From Alphaproteobacteria bacterium (lineage in GTDB: Bacteria > Pseudomonadota > Alphaproteobacteria > Micropepsales > Micropepsaceae), in assembly GCA_947467345.1 (NCBI GenBank), contig CANIHD010000004.1:62001-126000 (forward strand): a stretch of DNA of 64,000 bases. Direction: 5' to 3'. Shown here piece by piece: positions 48,037 through 57,570 of the stretch (the stretch's first letter is position 1; each line of letters starts with the position of its first letter). A program made the position numbers and the translations under genes. Below the pieces are notes generated by a model. It was not told where the DNA came from. It saw only the letters and a program-made list of their open reading frames with translations, and made no database searches.

Positions 48037-48120
48037 AGAGGGGCAAATGCCGCAACGTAATCATCTAGGCATTTGAGCGGCGATCACCACCTCTCGCACG
48101 ACACCCCGGTTTCGCGCACA

Positions 48121-48828
48121 ATGGAAACGATGGGCGGATTTCTCACCGGGGCGGAATTGGAAGCATTGGCGCTGTCCTTTCGGATAGCGAGCATTTCCGT
48201 TTTGATCACCCTGCCCTTCGCCTTCGCTGCCGGGCTGTTGCTGGCGCGCGCACAATTCCCCGGTAAATCTTTGGTCGATGGCATTGTGCATCTGCCCCTG
48301 GTGCTGCCGCCGGTCGCGATGGGTTATTTGCTGCTGGTTATCTTCGGCACGCGCGCGCCGCTCGGCGCCTGGCTGTTGGAGAATTTGGGGATTCGCTTCG
48401 TGTTCAGTTGGACCGGAGCTGTGCTGGCTTCCGCCATTCTCACCTTTCCGTTTCAGGTGCGCGCGATCCGGCTTTCGCTGGAAGCGGAAGATCCGCGCCT
48501 GTCGCAAGCAGCCGAGACATTGGGCGCCAGCGCCCTCGACCGTCTGATGAGTTTGCATATCCCCCTCGCCCTACCCGGCATACTCGCCGGCGCAGTCACA
48601 GCCTTCGCAGCCTGCCTCGGAGAGTTCGGCGCCATCATCACCTTCGTATCGAACATTCCAGGCGAAACGCGCACCATTCCGCTGGCGATCTACACCGCCA
48701 TCCAATCTCCCGGCGGTGAGGCAGCGGCGGCGCGGCTTTCGGCCCTTTCCATCGCGCTTGCGCTTTTGGGATTGATCCTCGCGGAATTCTTGGCGCGGCG
48801 CGCGCGGATCGCCACCGGACGCGCATGA
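48121..48828 (+). CDS. modB: Molybdate ABC transporter permease
   Basis: The permease of about 235 residues has five to six membrane helices and the EAA loop ETLGASALDRLMSLHIPLAL, followed by CLGEFGAIITFVSNIPGETR, a segment typical of ModB. It forms the channel for molybdate or tungstate. The start is uncertain: ATG 48121, ATG 48130 or an upstream TTG are all possible. Its stop overlaps modC by four bases. Confidence 0.92.
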   Translation: METMGGFLTGAELEALALSFRIASISVLITLPFAFAAGLLLARAQFPGKSLVDGIVHLPLVLPPVAMGYLLLVIFGTRAPLGAWLLENLGIRFVFSWTGAVLASAILTFPFQVRAIRLSLEAEDPRLSQAAETLGASALDRLMSLHIPLALPGILAGAVTAFAACLGEFGAIITFVSNIPGETRTIPLAIYTAIQSPGGEAAAARLSALSIALALLGLILAEFLARRARIATGRA

Positions 48829-49910
48829 CCGGACATATCGCCATCTCCACGCAGCTTGGCGCGTTCGCGCTCGACGCCGCATTCGAGCTGCCGGATTCCG
48901 ACGTGACCGCTCTGTTCGGCCCGTCCGGCGCGGGCAAATCCACCATCGTGCACGCCATCGCGGGACTTATGATGCCCGCGAAAGGGCAGATCACTATTGG
49001 TGGCGAGACACTGCTCGATACGGAGCGCAATATCTCAGTCCCAGCCCGTCAGCGGCGCCTCGGCGTGGTGTTTCAGGATTCGCGCCTGTTTCCGCATCTC
49101 TCGGTGCGTGGCAATCTTCTCTATGGCTGGCGGCGCGCTGCAGCGCCTTGCGGCGCCGATGAAGTAGACCGTGTTACACGCCTTCTCGGACTCGAAAATT
49201 TTCTGGAGCGCAAACCGCGCACGCTCTCCGGAGGTGAACGTAGCCGTGTTGCATTGGGACGCGCGCTTCTGATGGGCCCGCGTGCGCTTCTGCTCGACGA
49301 ACCGCTGACCGGGCTCGACGCCACGCGCAAAGGCGAAATTCTTCCCTATCTCGAACGCATCCGTGACGAGGAAAAGTTGCCCATTCTTTATGTGAGCCAC
49401 GCAATAGACGAGATCACGCGGTTTGCCGATCGCATCGTCGTTCTGAATGCGGGGCGCGTAGTGGCCGAAGGCTCATTGTTCGACGTCACGGCGCGGCTCG
49501 ATCTTGCGAGCGGACAGGCGATGTTTCCCGGAACCATCTTGGACGCCACAGTCGCGGCGCATGACCGCCCGTTCGGTCTGACCGAGCTTGCCATTGGCGG
49601 CGAACGCTTGGTCGTTCCCGCCATGACGCGGAATATCGGCGATAAAATCCGTATACGGATCGATGCGCAGGACGTCATGCTGGCGCTGTCGCGCCCCTCA
49701 GACGTCAGCGCTAATAATATCTTGCCTGCCATCATTGAAGAGATGCGTGCCCATGACGAGACGGCGATGGATGTAAAATTGCGGCTTGGAGAAACGCGAT
49801 TGCTGGCGCGCGTCACGCGGCGCTCGGCGGAACGCCTCGGCCTTGCCGTGGAGGGGGATGTCTTCGCCATCATTAAAGCCGTGACCGTCGGCGGGCGCGA
49901 CGGCGCTTAG
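48825..49910 (+). CDS. modC: Molybdate ABC transporter ATP-binding protein
   Basis: The 361-residue ATPase has Walker A GPSGAGKST (about 32-40), the signature LSGGERSRVALGRALL, Walker B ALLLDEPLTGLDA and the H-loop VSHAIDE, followed by a TOBE/Mop domain (about 290-355) that binds oxyanion. It energises ModB. No modA or modE gene lies nearby: DUF6614 is upstream and an unrelated small gene is downstream. Confidence 0.94.
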   Translation: MTGHIAISTQLGAFALDAAFELPDSDVTALFGPSGAGKSTIVHAIAGLMMPAKGQITIGGETLLDTERNISVPARQRRLGVVFQDSRLFPHLSVRGNLLYGWRRAAAPCGADEVDRVTRLLGLENFLERKPRTLSGGERSRVALGRALLMGPRALLLDEPLTGLDATRKGEILPYLERIRDEEKLPILYVSHAIDEITRFADRIVVLNAGRVVAEGSLFDVTARLDLASGQAMFPGTILDATVAAHDRPFGLTELAIGGERLVVPAMTRNIGDKIRIRIDAQDVMLALSRPSDVSANNILPAIIEEMRAHDETAMDVKLRLGETRLLARVTRRSAERLGLAVEGDVFAIIKAVTVGGRDGA

Positions 49911-50391: not shown

Positions 50392-51363
50392 ATGAGCCAT
50401 TTCGCAACGCGTATCGCTCGAGCCGCCGGTCTTGGCGCTCTCTTGCTCGCCGGCAGCGCCGCCGCCCAGACCATGGATTGGGCGCCGGAAGCGCCGGTGC
50501 CGGTAGCGCGCTCTGAAGCCACCGCCGTGGGCGCTGACGGACGGGTCTATATCATCGCCGGCAAATCGCCCGGCAACGAATCCAGCGGGCTGGTGCATCA
50601 GCTCGAAACAATGAACAGCGAGTGGAGCGAAAAGGCGAAGATGCCGAATGTCGCTTCGCACGCCGGCGGCGCCACGTTGGGCGGCAAGATTTACATCGTG
50701 GGCGGCTTTATCGGCGACGTTCACGTCGGCGCTATGGACCGTGTGTTCGAATATGACGTGAAGGCCGACACCTGGCGCGCTATGGCGCCGCTGCCGACGC
50801 CGCGCGGATCACCCATCGTGGTGGCGGCCGCAGGCAAGCTGCATGTCATCGGTGGACGTGACGCCAATAAGAAGACATTGACCGCGCACGAAGTGTTCAC
50901 GCCCGCCACCAATAGCTGGACAACGGCAGCGCCGTTGCCACTGGCGCGCGATCACGCCGGCTCCGCGGTTGTCGCGGGAAAGATTCATGTTTTCGGCGGG
51001 CGCACCGATGGGGCAGCCGATAATGTCGGCCAGCATGATGTCTACGATCCGCGCACCGATACATGGACCCAAGCTGCACCGTTGACTGTCCCACGCAGCG
51101 CCGGCGCTTCCGGCTTCATCAATGGGCGTATCATCTATGCCGGTGGCGAATGCAAAGATGCCGCCGCTCACACGACCTATGATGAAGTCGAGGCCTACGA
51201 TCCCATGACCGACAAATGGACGTTGATCGGAAAAATGCCGTCGGGACGGCATGCCGCCGCCTCGGTCGCATTGGGACCAGTGCTCTATATCATCGGCGGC
51301 AATAGCGGCTGCGGTGGCGACGGCCCGCTCACGGATGCGCAAACCTTACGTATCACGCGCTGA
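50392..51363 (+). CDS. Exported Kelch-repeat protein
   Basis: The 323-residue protein has a signal peptide (ARAAGLGALLLAGSAAAQ) and five to six Kelch motifs, each with a GG pair and a spaced Tyr/Trp, such as GGKIYIVGGF, AGKLHVIGGRD and AGKIHVFGGRT. It folds as a beta-propeller in the periplasm or outside the cell. It resembles the N-acetylneuraminate mutarotase/Kelch group, but a sugar role is not shown. GGAGG precedes the ATG. It ends five bases before the nitrile hydratase-like genes, so co-transcription is likely. Confidence 0.86.
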   Translation: MSHFATRIARAAGLGALLLAGSAAAQTMDWAPEAPVPVARSEATAVGADGRVYIIAGKSPGNESSGLVHQLETMNSEWSEKAKMPNVASHAGGATLGGKIYIVGGFIGDVHVGAMDRVFEYDVKADTWRAMAPLPTPRGSPIVVAAAGKLHVIGGRDANKKTLTAHEVFTPATNSWTTAAPLPLARDHAGSAVVAGKIHVFGGRTDGAADNVGQHDVYDPRTDTWTQAAPLTVPRSAGASGFINGRIIYAGGECKDAAAHTTYDEVEAYDPMTDKWTLIGKMPSGRHAAASVALGPVLYIIGGNSGCGGDGPLTDAQTLRITR

Positions 51364-51368
51364 TTCTC

Positions 51369-51680
51369 GTGCGCACGCCGAATGACATTGGCGGCTTGGA
51401 TGAAGGCCCGGTGGATGTTGCCATCCACGATCTGACGTTCTGGGAAAAGCAGATCGATGCATTGAACATGCTGCTCGGCGCCAAGGGCATCAGGCGCACC
51501 GATGAAAACCGGCGTTACATCGAGATGCTCGGACACGACGCTTATAACACGCTTTCCTATTACGAGCGCTGGACGGCGTCGATGTCACGGCTTCTGATCG
51601 ACAAAGGTTACATCACTCAGGAAGAGATCGACGCCAAAGTAGCGGAGATTCGTGGACGGCTTGCAAAGGACGCAGGATGA
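51369..51680 (+). CDS. Nitrile hydratase beta N-terminal-domain subunit (thiocyanate hydrolase beta-like)
   Basis: The 103-residue protein corresponds to the helical N-terminal half of nitrile hydratase beta: FWEKQIDALNMLLGAKGIRR, GHDAYNTLSYYERWTASMSR and KGYITQEEIDAKVAEIRGRL. In ordinary nitrile hydratase this is joined to the SH3-like half; here it is a separate gene that overlaps the next by four bases (ATGA). The start is a GTG five bases after the Kelch stop and probably relies on coupling. Confidence 0.87.
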   Translation: MRTPNDIGGLDEGPVDVAIHDLTFWEKQIDALNMLLGAKGIRRTDENRRYIEMLGHDAYNTLSYYERWTASMSRLLIDKGYITQEEIDAKVAEIRGRLAKDAG

Positions 51681-51961
51681 TGGGCGCGCTGTCGCCCGGC
51701 GACCGCGTGCGTGTGCGTGACGATTATCCCGTCGGCCACATTCGTACGCCGGTCTATGTGCGCGGGCACGAAGGCATTGTCGCGCGGGCTTTTGGAAAAT
51801 TCCGCAATCCGGAAACCCTCGCCATCGGGCGCGACGGCATGCCGATGAAGGTCTTGTTCGAGGTACGTTTCCGCCAGAAGGATCTGTGGCCTAATTACAG
51901 CGGATCGGACAACGACACGCTGCTGATCGATCTCTACGAACATTGGCTGGTCAAGGTTTGA
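51677..51961 (+). CDS. Nitrile hydratase beta C-terminal-domain subunit (thiocyanate hydrolase alpha-like)
   Basis: The 94-residue protein is the SH3-like C-terminal half of nitrile hydratase beta: LSPGDRVRVRDDYPVGHIRT, VYVRGHEGIVARAFGKFRNP, MKVLFEVRFRQKDLW and DLYEHWLVKV. Its separation from the N-terminal half, and the gene order beta-N, beta-C, alpha, match the three-subunit thiocyanate hydrolase layout (scnB, scnA, scnC). Confidence 0.88.
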   Translation: MMGALSPGDRVRVRDDYPVGHIRTPVYVRGHEGIVARAFGKFRNPETLAIGRDGMPMKVLFEVRFRQKDLWPNYSGSDNDTLLIDLYEHWLVKV

Positions 51962-51967
51962 CGCACC

Positions 51968-52603
51968 ATGCATGACCACGATCACCATGACCATCACCAC
52001 GAAAACGATCACGCACCGGTGGCGAAAGACGAGAAGATCCACTCCTACTACCAAATACTCGGTCTGGCGCTGAAGGAACTTCTGATCGAGAAAGGCGTGA
52101 TCACCGCCGACGAGGTGCGCAAGGCAATAGAGTACCGCGACTCCATAACGCCGGCGAACGGCGCACGGATGGTCGTCAAAGCGTGGACCGAACCGGCTTA
52201 CAAAGTGCGGCTGCTCGCCGACGGCGTTGCCGCCAGCAAGGAACTCGGCCTCGATCCCGGCGCGCTTAATCTGGTGGTGGTGGAAAACACTCCAGACATT
52301 CACAACGTGATCGTCTGCACGCTGTGCTCCTGCTACCCGCGCAATATTCTGGGCTTGCCGCCCCCCTGGTATAAAAGCCGCGAATACCGCGCCCGTGTGG
52401 TGCGCGAGCCGCGCGCCGTTTTGGCGGAATTCGGCACGCGACTGCCCGAGACCGTCGAGGTACGGGTGCACGATTCGACCGCCGACATGCGCTATCTGGT
52501 GCTGCCCATGCGCCCCGCTGGTGCTGAGAACCTGGACGAAGCAACGCTGGCAGCTCTCGTTACGCGCGATTGCATGATCGGCGTCAGTCTGCCGCAAGCC
52601 TGA
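51968..52603 (+). CDS. Cobalt-type nitrile hydratase alpha / thiocyanate hydrolase gamma-like catalytic subunit
   Basis: The 211-residue catalytic subunit carries the metal claw VCTLCSCYPRNILGLPPPWY with Cys117, Cys120 and Cys122; Thr between the first two Cys marks the cobalt rather than iron type. The N-terminus (residues 2-15) is unusually His/Asp-rich and could bind cobalt. The family hydrates nitriles to amides or, in thiocyanate hydrolase, thiocyanate to carbonyl sulfide. The substrate here is unknown. No cobalt chaperone or amidase gene is adjacent. Confidence 0.9.
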   Translation: MHDHDHHDHHHENDHAPVAKDEKIHSYYQILGLALKELLIEKGVITADEVRKAIEYRDSITPANGARMVVKAWTEPAYKVRLLADGVAASKELGLDPGALNLVVVENTPDIHNVIVCTLCSCYPRNILGLPPPWYKSREYRARVVREPRAVLAEFGTRLPETVEVRVHDSTADMRYLVLPMRPAGAENLDEATLAALVTRDCMIGVSLPQA

Positions 52604-52704
52604 CTTTTTCGTTAGCATCGAATGGCGGTTTCGAGTTGACGAAGCCGGTCCCTTTTCGTCACGGTCGTTGCGGAATCACCTATGAGGGGCTCTTGCCCAT
52701 AGCT

Positions 52705-53463
52705 ATGCCTAAATTCCCGGGATCAAGCAGCCTTGTGCTGGCAGCCGCACTGCTCTGTTTAGCGCCGGTATTTTCTACCATCGCGCACGCGGCGGAAGCC
52801 CAGGCAACAACCGCCATTCCAACCGGCGCACGCGATTTGAGCGGCGTGTGGTGGACCAAGAGTTTCAATCCCAGAATTCTTCCAGCGCGCGGCGCTTCGC
52901 CCCCTTTCACGCCGGTGGGTGCAGCGCGCTACGCCGACAATGTCGCGAAGCTACGCGACGGTTCCTTGGAAGACCATTCGCGCGTCTGGTGCTCGCCTGA
53001 TGGGTTACCGCGCGCGTGGGCTCAGCCTTATCCGTTCCGCATCGCACAAACCGCGGACAAAGCGGTCATCATCTATGAAAGCAATGCTGCGTTCCGCGTT
53101 GTCGAGATGAACAAAGACGTTCCGCCCGAGAGCGATTGGCTGCCCTATTTCATGGGCAATTCCTACGGCAAGTGGGACGGCAATACGCTCGTCGTCAATG
53201 TTGTGGGTTTCAAAACGACGACAACGTTTCTTGACGATAGCGGCGTGCCGCAAAGCGAGCGCTTACGCCTCACCGAACGCCTGCGCAAAATCGGCAATGA
53301 TGAGTTGGAAGTAATTGTTACTGTCGACGATCCGGTGATGTTCACCGAGGCCTGGGACGCACGCTTCGTGTTTCAGCGTCGCGATGACATTCAGCATTTC
53401 GATTTCTGGGTTTGCGGCGAGCCGCACCGCGACACGCGCTCAGTTCAGGGAGCTCCGCGATGA
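52705..53463 (+). CDS. Exported protein of unknown function (GDTLVV family, copy 1)
   Basis: The 252-residue product has a signal peptide (SLVLAAALLCLAPVFSTIAH) and a mature part starting ARDLSGVWWTKSFNP. It contains YFMGNSYGKWDGNTLVVNVV, ERLRLTERLR and a late VTVDDPVMFTEAWDARF, a pattern shared with the next two genes and seen in many exported proteins of Sphingomonadales and Acidobacteria, all uncharacterised. A WCSPDGLPRAW segment contains the first Cys. I start at ATG 52705. Its stop overlaps the next ATG. Confidence 0.8.
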   Translation: MPKFPGSSSLVLAAALLCLAPVFSTIAHAAEAQATTAIPTGARDLSGVWWTKSFNPRILPARGASPPFTPVGAARYADNVAKLRDGSLEDHSRVWCSPDGLPRAWAQPYPFRIAQTADKAVIIYESNAAFRVVEMNKDVPPESDWLPYFMGNSYGKWDGNTLVVNVVGFKTTTTFLDDSGVPQSERLRLTERLRKIGNDELEVIVTVDDPVMFTEAWDARFVFQRRDDIQHFDFWVCGEPHRDTRSVQGAPR

Positions 53464-54284
53464 GCCATTTGCGAACATTGCTAATGGGATGCGCGCTTGC
53501 GCTGGTGACGAATACGGTTGCGGCGCAGACGCCGAATTTCGGCGGTGCATTGTGGAATCGAGGGCTCGGTCCTTACGATCCGCCGTCAACAGGCGCAGGC
53601 CCAGTGCAGAACCCACCGGATATGCCCTTCGTGTTCCGCAACAATCGCAGCAACTATATCGGCGATACGACCAATCCCATCCTGCAGCCTTGGGCGGCCG
53701 AGCGCATACGCGCGCAAACGCAAAAGGAATTGGACGGCCATCAAGCCGGCACCTCACAGCAGACCTGCCGCCCCTCCGGCGTGCCGGGAATTCTTTATCT
53801 CAATGACCTCGTGCAAATCGTGCAGCGCCCGGATCTTGTTATTTTCCTCTACGCGCGCGGCCATCAATGGCGCATCGTTCACCTCGATGCGCAGCATCCA
53901 ACTAATCTCACGCCGTCCTGGTATGGAAATTCCACGGGCCGCTACGAAGGCGACACGTTGGTGGTCGACACGATCGGGCTGAACGACAAGCCGTGGGCCG
54001 ATCGCTACGGCACGCCGCAAACAAATCTGATGCATGTCGTGGAGCGTTATCGCCTAACGCCGGATCCGCACCCACCGCAGGGACAAGAACCGAAAGAGGT
54101 GCTCGAAGTACAGTTCACCATCACCGATCCCGGCGCGTTTACGATGCCCTGGTCGGCTCTCACGCGTTACCGGCAAGCCGGCGGCACCGAGCTCGACGAA
54201 CAAATTTGCCAGGAGAATAATCGCGAACTGGGCGAAGAGATTAGACCTCTAGTGCCCCACGCGGATTACAAATACCCGTATTGA
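53460..54284 (+). CDS. Exported protein of unknown function (GDTLVV family, copy 2)
   Basis: The 274-residue product has a signal peptide (RTLLMGCALALVTNTVAAQ). The core is WYGNSTGRYEGDTLVVDTIG, YGTPQTNLMHVVERYRLTPD, FTITDPGAFTMPWSALTRYR. It is closer to copy 3 than to copy 1: both also share ILKPWAA or ILQPWAA and IWQ/HQWRIVHLDAQHP-type segments. It overlaps copy 1 by four bases (ATGA). Confidence 0.8.
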   Translation: MSHLRTLLMGCALALVTNTVAAQTPNFGGALWNRGLGPYDPPSTGAGPVQNPPDMPFVFRNNRSNYIGDTTNPILQPWAAERIRAQTQKELDGHQAGTSQQTCRPSGVPGILYLNDLVQIVQRPDLVIFLYARGHQWRIVHLDAQHPTNLTPSWYGNSTGRYEGDTLVVDTIGLNDKPWADRYGTPQTNLMHVVERYRLTPDPHPPQGQEPKEVLEVQFTITDPGAFTMPWSALTRYRQAGGTELDEQICQENNRELGEEIRPLVPHADYKYPY

Positions 54285-54287
54285 ATT

Positions 54288-55124
54288 TCAGAAATCCGGC
54301 CAATCGTCTTTCGGGATCGGATATTCGCTGCCATCGGAATCTTTGGGATTCTCGGCGCAGCGAACTTCTTCCCAATTGTCGGCGCGCACGCGCCGATAGC
54401 GTTGAATGCCCGACCATGGCGTGGTGAATGTCGCCGGATCTTCGACGGTGAATCGCACTTCCAATGTTTGGCCATTGTCGATCAGGCGATAGCGCTCGAT
54501 CACATGCATCGCCTCCGTTGCCGGCGTGCCGAAATAATCGATCATGCCTTCGGCCGTCATGCCGACGGTATCGATCACCAATGTGTCGCCGTCATAGCGG
54601 CCGACGGAATGGCCGTAAGGCGTCGGCGCCAAATCTTTCGGATGCTGCTCGCCGAGATAAACACGCCGCGTTTGCTGATCGCGCTGATAGATCATGGTGA
54701 CCATCTTCGCTTCTTGAAGAAGAAACACCGGCTCGCGCAGCAGCAGCACGTGCGGTGTTCCCACCAGTTCGCACAATTGCAGCGGCTGCCACGGCGACTC
54801 TTCGCGGCCAATCTCTTCGGCTGCGCGCGTGCGCACCGCATTCGCGGCCCAAGGCTTCAAAATGGAAGAGGTCGGATCGCCGATCCAAAGGCGCGTTCCG
54901 GGAAGCCCTTTGCCGGCATCTTGTCCGTAAAGATGCGGCAGGCCGGGCATGTTGGTGACGGGACCAGGGCCCGACTCCGGCGGCCAGAAATGGGAAATGT
55001 TGTGCGCGAAGGTACCAGAAAGATCGGGAATCTTTGCCTGCTCGGCAGACAGCGCGGAACCGCATACCAACACAAAGGCAGCGCAGAGTCCGGCCACCGA
55101 CATACCACTCGCACTATGGCGCAT
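54288..55124 (-). CDS. Exported protein of unknown function (GDTLVV family, copy 3)
   Basis: The 278-residue product has a signal peptide (SVAGLCAAFVLVCGSALSAE) and the core PYGHSVGRYDGDTLVIDTVG, FGTPATEAMHVIERYRLIDN, FTVEDPATFTTPWSGIQRYR. It is on the opposite strand, three bases from the end of copy 2. I start at 55124, where GGGGAA precedes the ATG. The shared architecture suggests a periplasmic ligand-binding or enzyme fold, but function is unknown. Confidence 0.8.
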   Translation of the reverse strand: MRHSASGMSVAGLCAAFVLVCGSALSAEQAKIPDLSGTFAHNISHFWPPESGPGPVTNMPGLPHLYGQDAGKGLPGTRLWIGDPTSSILKPWAANAVRTRAAEEIGREESPWQPLQLCELVGTPHVLLLREPVFLLQEAKMVTMIYQRDQQTRRVYLGEQHPKDLAPTPYGHSVGRYDGDTLVIDTVGMTAEGMIDYFGTPATEAMHVIERYRLIDNGQTLEVRFTVEDPATFTTPWSGIQRYRRVRADNWEEVRCAENPKDSDGSEYPIPKDDWPDF

Positions 55125-55340
55125 GTGAATTCCCCGCTTTTTCCTGGGCAATATTAGCATGGCGGATCGGGCGGGGGCGACGCCGTTGGGGGACGGCCAT
55201 AGTGCCCTCCACAGGGGAAGCGCTCCCGGCGGCGTGATCACGCGGTTTTCACCAAAACCCGCGAAGGGGCTGTTACAGCCGGCGAAAAATCCATTATTCT
55301 AGGTCTAACACCGGCCCATGAGCCGGAACGGGAGACGATT

Positions 55341-55742
55341 ATGAAATTCAGAATTCTGGCACTTGCAGCGGCAGCTTCGGCTTTTGTGGCCGGCTCAGCT
55401 TTGGCCCATCATTCCTTCGCCATGTTCGATGCCAACAAGACCACCAAGCTGGCGGGCACCGTGAAGGAATATGAGTGGATCAACCCGCATGCCTGGATTC
55501 ACCTATCGGTGACAGCGGCCGACGGCAAGGCTCAGGAATGGTCTTTTGAAGGTGGCTCGACCGGCCAGCTCGCGCAGACCGGATGGACGCGGGAAACGTT
55601 GAAGCCCGGCGACAAGATCACAGTTGGCTTTCATCCGCTGAAAGACGGTTCCTACGGCGGGCAGTTGTTGGATATCGCGTTCCCTGACGGACGCACACTT
55701 TGCCAGGGCGCCGCATGCCGCGCGGCACGCCCCGCACAATAA
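55341..55742 (+). CDS. Exported DUF6152 protein
   Basis: The 133-residue product has a signal peptide (ILALAAAASAFVAGSALA) then HHSFAMFDANKTTKLAGTVK, EWINPHAWIHLSVTAADGKA and KPGDKITVGFHPLKDGSYGG, the DUF6152 pattern. Two His at the mature N-terminus suggest metal binding. The family often neighbours the GDTLVV-type exported proteins, as here. A terminator follows 64 bases after the stop. Confidence 0.86.
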   Translation: MKFRILALAAAASAFVAGSALAHHSFAMFDANKTTKLAGTVKEYEWINPHAWIHLSVTAADGKAQEWSFEGGSTGQLAQTGWTRETLKPGDKITVGFHPLKDGSYGGQLLDIAFPDGRTLCQGAACRAARPAQ

Positions 55743-56642: not shown

Positions 56643-57335
56643 CTATTTCTTGTCACCACTCACCGAGCGATAGGTGACGCCTCCGAGAACGGCGCCCACA
56701 ATTGGCGCCACCCAGAACAGCCACAATTGCTGGATCGCCCATCCCCCCACGAATAAAGCGGGGCCGGTGCTGCGCGCCGGGTTCACGCTGGTGTTGGTGA
56801 CGGGAATGCTGATGAGATGGATGAGCGTCAGGCAGAGGCCGATAGCGATGGGTGCGAAGCCTTTCGGCGCCCGCGCATCCGTGGCGCCCATGATGACGAA
56901 GAGAAAGACGAAGGTCATCGCAATTTCGGTAACGAAGGCAGAGATCAAGGAATATCCGCCTGGCGAATGTGCGTCATAACCGTTGGACGCGAAGCCGCCC
57001 GCGACATCGAAACCGGGCGCGCCGGACGCGATGACGAACAACACGGCGGCGCCGAAAATCCCGCCCAGAACTTGCGCGCCGATATAGGGCACCAGATCGC
57101 TGGCCGGAAACCGTCCGCCGACAAACAGGCCGACCGAGACCGCCGGATTCAAATGACAGCCCGAAATATGTCCGATGGCAAAGGCCATCGTCAGCACGGT
57201 GAGACCGAAGGCGAAGCTGACACCGAGGAGGCCGATGCCGACATCCGGAAAGCCCGCAGCCAGAACGGCGCTGCCGCAACCGCCAAGCACCAACCACGCC
57301 GTGCCGATGAACTCGGCAACCAGGCGATTTGCCAT
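56643..57335 (-). CDS. aqpZ: Aquaporin Z-like water channel
   Basis: The 230-residue protein has six membrane helices and the two half-helices with NPA boxes: [16 protein letters not shown] and [16 protein letters not shown]. The C-terminal Arg after the second NPA is the selectivity-filter Arg. [20 protein letters not shown] is the typical AqpZ start. It conducts water across the inner membrane. I start at ATG 57335. Confidence 0.94.
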
Positions 57336-57570
57336 TCCCGTACGCCCCTCCCCCATTTTTTGTCTTGTGCAATTTGACGCCTGAAAGCGGGGCGGAGGCA
57401 AGTGGCGGCTATGGTGATCGCAAATATTTCGCGGCGAGCCTATTCGCGGCGAATTTATTTGGCAGGGGCATGCATTTCGCAAGCACCCTATCCGTCATTC
57501 CGGGCGCGGTGCCGCGCGTTAACGTTGCGCCACAGACCCGTGAACCAGCATCTGTGGCGGATAATAAAAA

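Follow-up and report, generated by a model that had tools for sequence, protein, structure and literature searches.

The window, which is the whole stretch of 64,000 nucleotides analysed here from an alphaproteobacterium of the Micropepsaceae, carries at positions 51369-52603 three consecutive genes that read as an intact, operon-like unit encoding an enzyme of the nitrile hydratase (NHase) and thiocyanate hydrolase (SCNase) superfamily. The original prediction, that the beta subunit is split into an N-terminal gene (beta-N) and a C-terminal gene (beta-C) which precede the alpha gene, is borne out by three consecutive forward-strand open reading frames with the matching Pfam domains, NHase_beta_N (PF21006, E 2e-19), NHase_beta_C (PF02211, E 1.5e-20) and NHase_alpha (PF02979, E 9.8e-81), all far beyond chance and far over the cut-off. 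The best PDB relatives of the encoded proteins are cobalt NHases and SCNase: beta-N is closest to the SCNase beta chain (2dd4_B, E 2.2e-11), and beta-C to the beta subunit of the P. putida NHase (3qyh_B, E 5.4e-13), with the SCNase alpha chain (2dd4_A) at E 3.7e-10. The locus comprises the following features:

50392..51363, + strand: Kelch-repeat protein gene, likely with a signal peptide (Pfam Kelch_1, E 9.4e-44)
51369..51680, + strand: beta-N subunit gene (NHase beta N-terminal domain; AnhD / scnB-like), 103 aa, GTG start
51677..51961, + strand: beta-C subunit gene (NHase beta C-terminal SH3-like domain; AnhE / scnA-like), 94 aa
51968..52603, + strand: alpha subunit gene (AnhA / scnC-like), 211 aa
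52316..52333, + strand: cobalt claw CTLCSC, alpha residues 117-122; claw cysteines conserved in 91/91 Arg-type relatives
52340..52342, + strand: codon of alpha Arg125, equivalent to SCNase gamma-Arg136; Trp or Phe, rarely His, in other NHases
52626..52647, + strand: terminator-like hairpin 3' of the alpha gene, weak, the count of such sites in the region being at chance level

The GTG at 51369 is the earliest start codon available in the beta-N reading frame. The beta-N and beta-C genes overlap in an ATGA, and the alpha gene starts 6 bases past beta-C, so that a single message for the three genes is very likely. The Kelch gene ends 5 bases before beta-N and is possibly co-transcribed with the cassette; in a genus relative (genome G002, locus L203), a relative of it precedes the cassette by approximately 1.8 kb, and none was seen in the other fetched loci. 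The molybdate transporter genes modB and modC (48073-49910) precede the Kelch gene, and in G002 the Kelch gene has a similar ABC ATPase gene beside it (L203, 13319-14440), so that this site on the chromosome appears to be conserved across the genus. Downstream, positions 52708-55742 encode consecutive small, exported-looking proteins, of which the first matched neither Pfam nor NCBIfam; three of them are seemingly alike (sharing a motif like YDGDTLVIDT), and one containing HHSFAMFD (55341-55742) had no NCBIfam match. An Aquaporin Z gene on the minus strand (56643-57482), 4 kb downstream of the cassette, is probably unrelated to it.

As originally described, the gene before the cassette encodes a Kelch protein, and neither an amidase nor a metal chaperone or activator gene adjoins the cassette. 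The NHase activator family (TIGR03889) is absent from the genome of the window and from the genomes G002 and G006, and genomes with NHases included as positive controls scored in the same search. The genome, which is 96% complete, contains one NHase alpha gene. Its amidase-signature proteins consist of GatA and no other, and it has no FmdA/AmdA-type amidase, which leaves the route from nitrile to amide to acid without an obvious second enzyme from the amidase-signature and FmdA/AmdA families. A NicO-type metal transporter is encoded elsewhere in the genome.

Pocket residues and phylogenetic placement

In this enzyme family, the substrate pocket is situated between the subunits, and a Thr within the CTLCSC claw marks the cobalt type of NHase. 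The alpha subunit of the window retains this claw, as was claimed, which supports its assignment to the cobalt-type enzymes. The most telling residue was missing from the original prediction: Arg125 of alpha, directly after the claw (CTLCSCYPR). This position has evidently been probed as a switch between SCNase and NHase activity, as reciprocal exchanges are present among the PDB entries, R136W in SCNase (3vyg_C) and the reverse Trp-to-Arg change in the P. thermophila NHase (3vyh_A).

Arg at the position of gamma-Arg136 was found in all 91 cassette-type relatives and in the three SCNases, whereas the 23 canonical NHases without exception have Trp or Phe. The second pocket arginine, beta-N Arg49, is equivalent to SCNase beta-Arg91 and to NHase beta-His53; Arg occupies this column in 76/83 relatives and 3/3 SCNases, and in 0/19 NHases, where His or Phe prevails. 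The preceding residue, beta-N Arg48 (SCNase beta-Arg90, NHase beta-Arg52), is Arg throughout (83/83 relatives, 19/19 NHases, 3/3 SCNases). The second shell follows a different pattern. Beta-N Glu52 aligns with NHase beta-Glu56, and beta-C His21 and Arg23 with NHase beta-His147 and its neighbouring Arg; Glu is found in 83/83 clade members and His in 86/86, and neither in any of the three SCNases, which have Ala/Asn and Tyr in these columns. Judged from the aligned residues, the cassette thus has an SCNase-like pocket and an NHase-like second shell.

The alpha subunit passed the NHase alpha model of NCBIfam (TIGR01323; 264.4 bits, cut-off 249.85) and missed the SCNase gamma model (TIGR03887; 230 bits, cut-off 291.45). 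Plain membership in SCNase is not supported, given the latter score and the second-shell residues. Of the predicted thiocyanate-hydrolase/NHase layout, the split order and the cobalt type therefore stand, and the notion of a compact SCNase is not supported, since in addition the described enzymes that match the layout are NHases.

In the alpha tree, a single branch (100/100) separates the Arg type, including SCNase, from all Trp/Phe NHases, and this split was recovered in all 200 bootstrap trees checked. The original prediction had named a position of all three subunits inside ordinary NHase as the outcome that would count against it; instead, the alpha subunit falls in a clade with SCNase. 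A thinned tree that includes the loci of the even draw described below again sets the Arg type and SCNase apart (100/99), with the SCNases as their own long-branched group and the window outside the SCNase group proper. A comparison of a nested with a sister position of the SCNases relative to the compact clade gave a p-AU of 0.456, which favours neither. The beta-N and beta-C trees are built on short proteins and recover the same three groups with weak support, the SH-aLRT values for the deep groups being 49-93. Both the trees and the tally of residues led to the rejection of a recent split of the beta gene in an ordinary NHase.

Distribution of the Arg-type cassette

When the GTDB collection was searched at the protein level, the 80 nearest loci, picked by their similarity to the window, were kept. 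All of those with a complete contig carry the three-gene unit with an Arg after the claw, and the same unit is found in relatives from the same genus. The cassette is thus a typical member of a large clade characterized by a split beta subunit, no activator, and Arg in place of Trp/Phe after the claw; this clade is common but poorly studied. With 103, 94 and 211 aa, the subunits are indeed shorter than the SCNase chains in PDB (157, 126 and 243 aa), but they sit close to the medians of 95 split relatives (103, 93 and 213 aa for beta-N, beta-C and alpha), so that the compact size that was pointed out is the norm of the group. The His/Asp-rich start of alpha, which was proposed to be unusual, likewise proved not to be so, as it also occurs in the SCNase gamma subunit (HDHDHDHDHDHK) and in the P. 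putida NHase alpha subunit (THDHHHD).

Since resemblance to the window had been the criterion for the GTDB loci, an independent set of 397 Pseudomonadota genomes was drawn evenly, and all 77 usable NHase-alpha loci were read. Twelve of them, about one in six, are of the Arg type. An activator accompanies none of these 12 and 62 of the 65 others (Fisher p ~1e-11, uncorrected for kinship). The beta subunit is split in 11 of the 12, locus L195 having beta-N fused to alpha; among the 65 non-Arg loci (Trp, Phe, and two with His), only three have a split beta, all with an activator. The pocket tally was repeated in the main: the second beta position is Arg or Lys in the Arg type, and mixed, mostly His or Phe, elsewhere. 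The two loci with His for Trp after the claw (L122 and L125) are cobalt NHases sharing one genus code (g39).

Several fusions were observed. In three Arg-type loci, beta-N and alpha are joined through a His/Asp-rich linker (L006, 1477-2718, minus strand; L014, 1063-2151; L195, 1256-3079), which in L195 reads HAEHDHDHDHDHDHDHDHPYQED; the arrangement resembles that in Monosiga, where a His linker connects beta to alpha (PMC2603476). On Azospirillum and Roseomonas plasmids (L097, 5033-6675; L102, 5026-6675), the scnB and scnA of an SCNase are fused into a protein of 283 aa, after which come scnC and genes for cobalt/nickel uptake.

Gene clustering around more than 80 loci revealed no shared catabolic partner and mostly vertical synteny; in the Rhodobacterales, for instance, the cassette is surrounded by genes for FliG, a lipid A acyltransferase, an EamA transporter and others. 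The neighbours of the cassette vary and give no consistent hint of the substrate. An aquaporin gene and a cobalt transporter gene follow the unit in plasmid loci of Streptomyces, Rhizobium, Agrobacterium and Microvirga; in the Arg-type plasmid loci L098, L100, L101 and L119, the aquaporin and a HoxN or CbtAB cobalt transporter are encoded directly downstream. In two genus relatives, alpha is followed directly and in the same orientation by a gene for a TcuC-like tricarballylate/proton symporter (L203, 6542-9187, minus strand; L204, 3771-5051).

Predicted function and comparison with known systems

The cassette probably encodes a cobalt enzyme of the NHase superfamily belonging to the compact, three-subunit, activator-free kind, with a two-arginine pocket. 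The three gene products would be subunits of one enzyme, in which beta-N and beta-C together stand in for the normal beta subunit against alpha, and Co(III) would be held in the CTLCSC claw of alpha. The conserved beta arginines, beta-N Arg48 and one arginine of beta-C, are expected to face the oxidised claw cysteines. As the genome has no activator gene, cobalt loading is probably a second task of beta-N, a chaperone role that has been reported for AnhD. The enzyme would add water to the C-N triple bond of its substrate, and that it is a C-N-hydrating cobalt enzyme is the part of this reading we regard as highly probable. The presence of alpha Arg125 and beta-N Arg49 in the pocket makes a small polar or anionic cyano compound a serious possibility as the substrate. 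Read from the pocket, an anionic or very polar physiological substrate has a chance that we place slightly short of even. Thiocyanate, which would be converted to COS and ammonia, is the leading single anionic candidate, but that it is itself the substrate seems rather unlikely.

The strongest alternative, with nearly balanced prospects, is a plain NHase for neutral nitriles like the enzymes of Streptomyces canus and Microvirga flocculans, in which the arginines impose no anion selectivity. The S. canus enzyme AnhDEA hydrates acetamiprid, thiacloprid and benzonitrile (PMC7329996) and the M. flocculans enzyme PnhF hydrates flonicamid, which argues against strict anion selectivity; the passed NHase alpha model and the retained NHase second shell fit this alternative as well. 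Nevertheless, the Arg that replaces Trp/Phe is invariant in the clade (91/91 among the relatives, 12/12 in the even draw), suggesting that the pocket is under selection, the Km of PnhF for flonicamid is poor (32.9 mM), and GatA is the only amidase-signature protein of the genome. It is unlikely that the cassette encodes a genuine thiocyanate hydrolase that is orthologous to the Thiobacillus SCNase but more compact. Both pocket arginines are held in common, SCNase branches beside or inside the same clade, the best PDB match of beta-N is SCNase beta, and a route to COS and ammonia needs no amidase; against this, the gamma model was not reached, the SCNases form a separate long-branched group, Glu/His in the window correspond to Ala/Asn and Tyr in SCNase, the subunits of the cassette are smaller, and the described three-subunit relatives work on nitriles.

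We consider it improbable that the natural substrate is a nitrile-bearing organic acid imported by a carboxylate symporter: the TcuC-like genes directly 3' of alpha in the two genus relatives point in this direction and a two-arginine pocket would suit an anion, but the genome of the window contains no TcuC-type protein over the cut-off, and no such gene was seen beside the other clade members checked. An ordinary two-subunit NHase with a recently split beta gene is hardly credible, since the Trp-type NHases with split beta that do exist (L108, L109, L120, L126 and L147) retain both the Trp and the activator, while the window, placed in another clade, has neither and shares its split beta with 95 relatives.

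The point of interest of the favoured reading, a compact activator-free cobalt enzyme, is that the two-arginine pocket extends across the whole clade, whose publicly annotated examples are named just nitrile hydratase. If this pocket means thiocyanate or another anion, many genes bear an incorrect annotation, and thiocyanate turnover by a widespread route, with release of COS and ammonia, would have been overlooked. More speculatively, the Arg-type, activator-free three-gene clade might represent a third class between NHase and SCNase, combining an anion-selective two-arginine pocket with an NHase catalytic second shell, in which beta-N replaces the activator; it would then be a widespread, mis-annotated hydrolase of thiocyanate or anionic nitriles in Alphaproteobacteria, including marine Rhodobacterales. 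The clade also offers a natural contrast for the pocket residue that sets NHase versus SCNase specificity, and for cobalt loading without an activator.

The compact three-subunit, activator-free kind is already known from S. canus and M. flocculans, and the window provides a further member. By our comparison, AnhDEA and PnhF, both NHases, appear to be the closest described enzymes. AnhD-AnhE-AnhA of S. canus CGMCC 13662 is a three-subunit cobalt NHase of 10.4, 11.35 and 21.3 kDa without an activator, in which AnhD serves as beta-N and as cobalt chaperone (PMC7329996). It has the same gene order as the window, beta-N, beta-C, alpha, and similarly small subunits, and the window likewise has no activator gene in its genome; AnhE His21 and AnhD Glu56 (PMC13243292) correspond to beta-C His21 and beta-N Glu52, the likeness to this enzyme from another phylum being one of layout, size and these two residues. 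PnhF of M. flocculans CGMCC 1.16731 is plasmid-encoded, with the alpha gene lying between its two beta genes (PMC11573777), and shares the split beta and three subunits with the window. The layout described for PnhF was found in an activator-free split-type locus on a Microvirga terrae plasmid (L119), in which the order beta-C, alpha, beta-N differs from that of the window and genes for a cobalt transporter and an aquaporin-like protein lie downstream. We predict that AnhA and PnhF are of the Arg type and belong to the Arg clade.

The SCNase of Thiobacillus thioparus (scnB-scnA-scnC, 2dd4) has in common with the window the split beta, the cobalt claw, the equivalents of gamma-Arg136 and beta-Arg91, and the His/Asp-rich start of the claw subunit, but differs in its larger subunits, in the replacement of Glu56 and His147, in its own long branch, and in the activator gene reported for it (PMC7193024). 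The two-subunit cobalt NHases of P. putida (3qxe) and P. thermophila (1ire) share with the window the fold family, the claw, the catalytic beta arginine, Glu56 and His147, and are distinguished from it by a one-piece beta subunit, an activator gene, Trp after the claw, and His at the second beta position.
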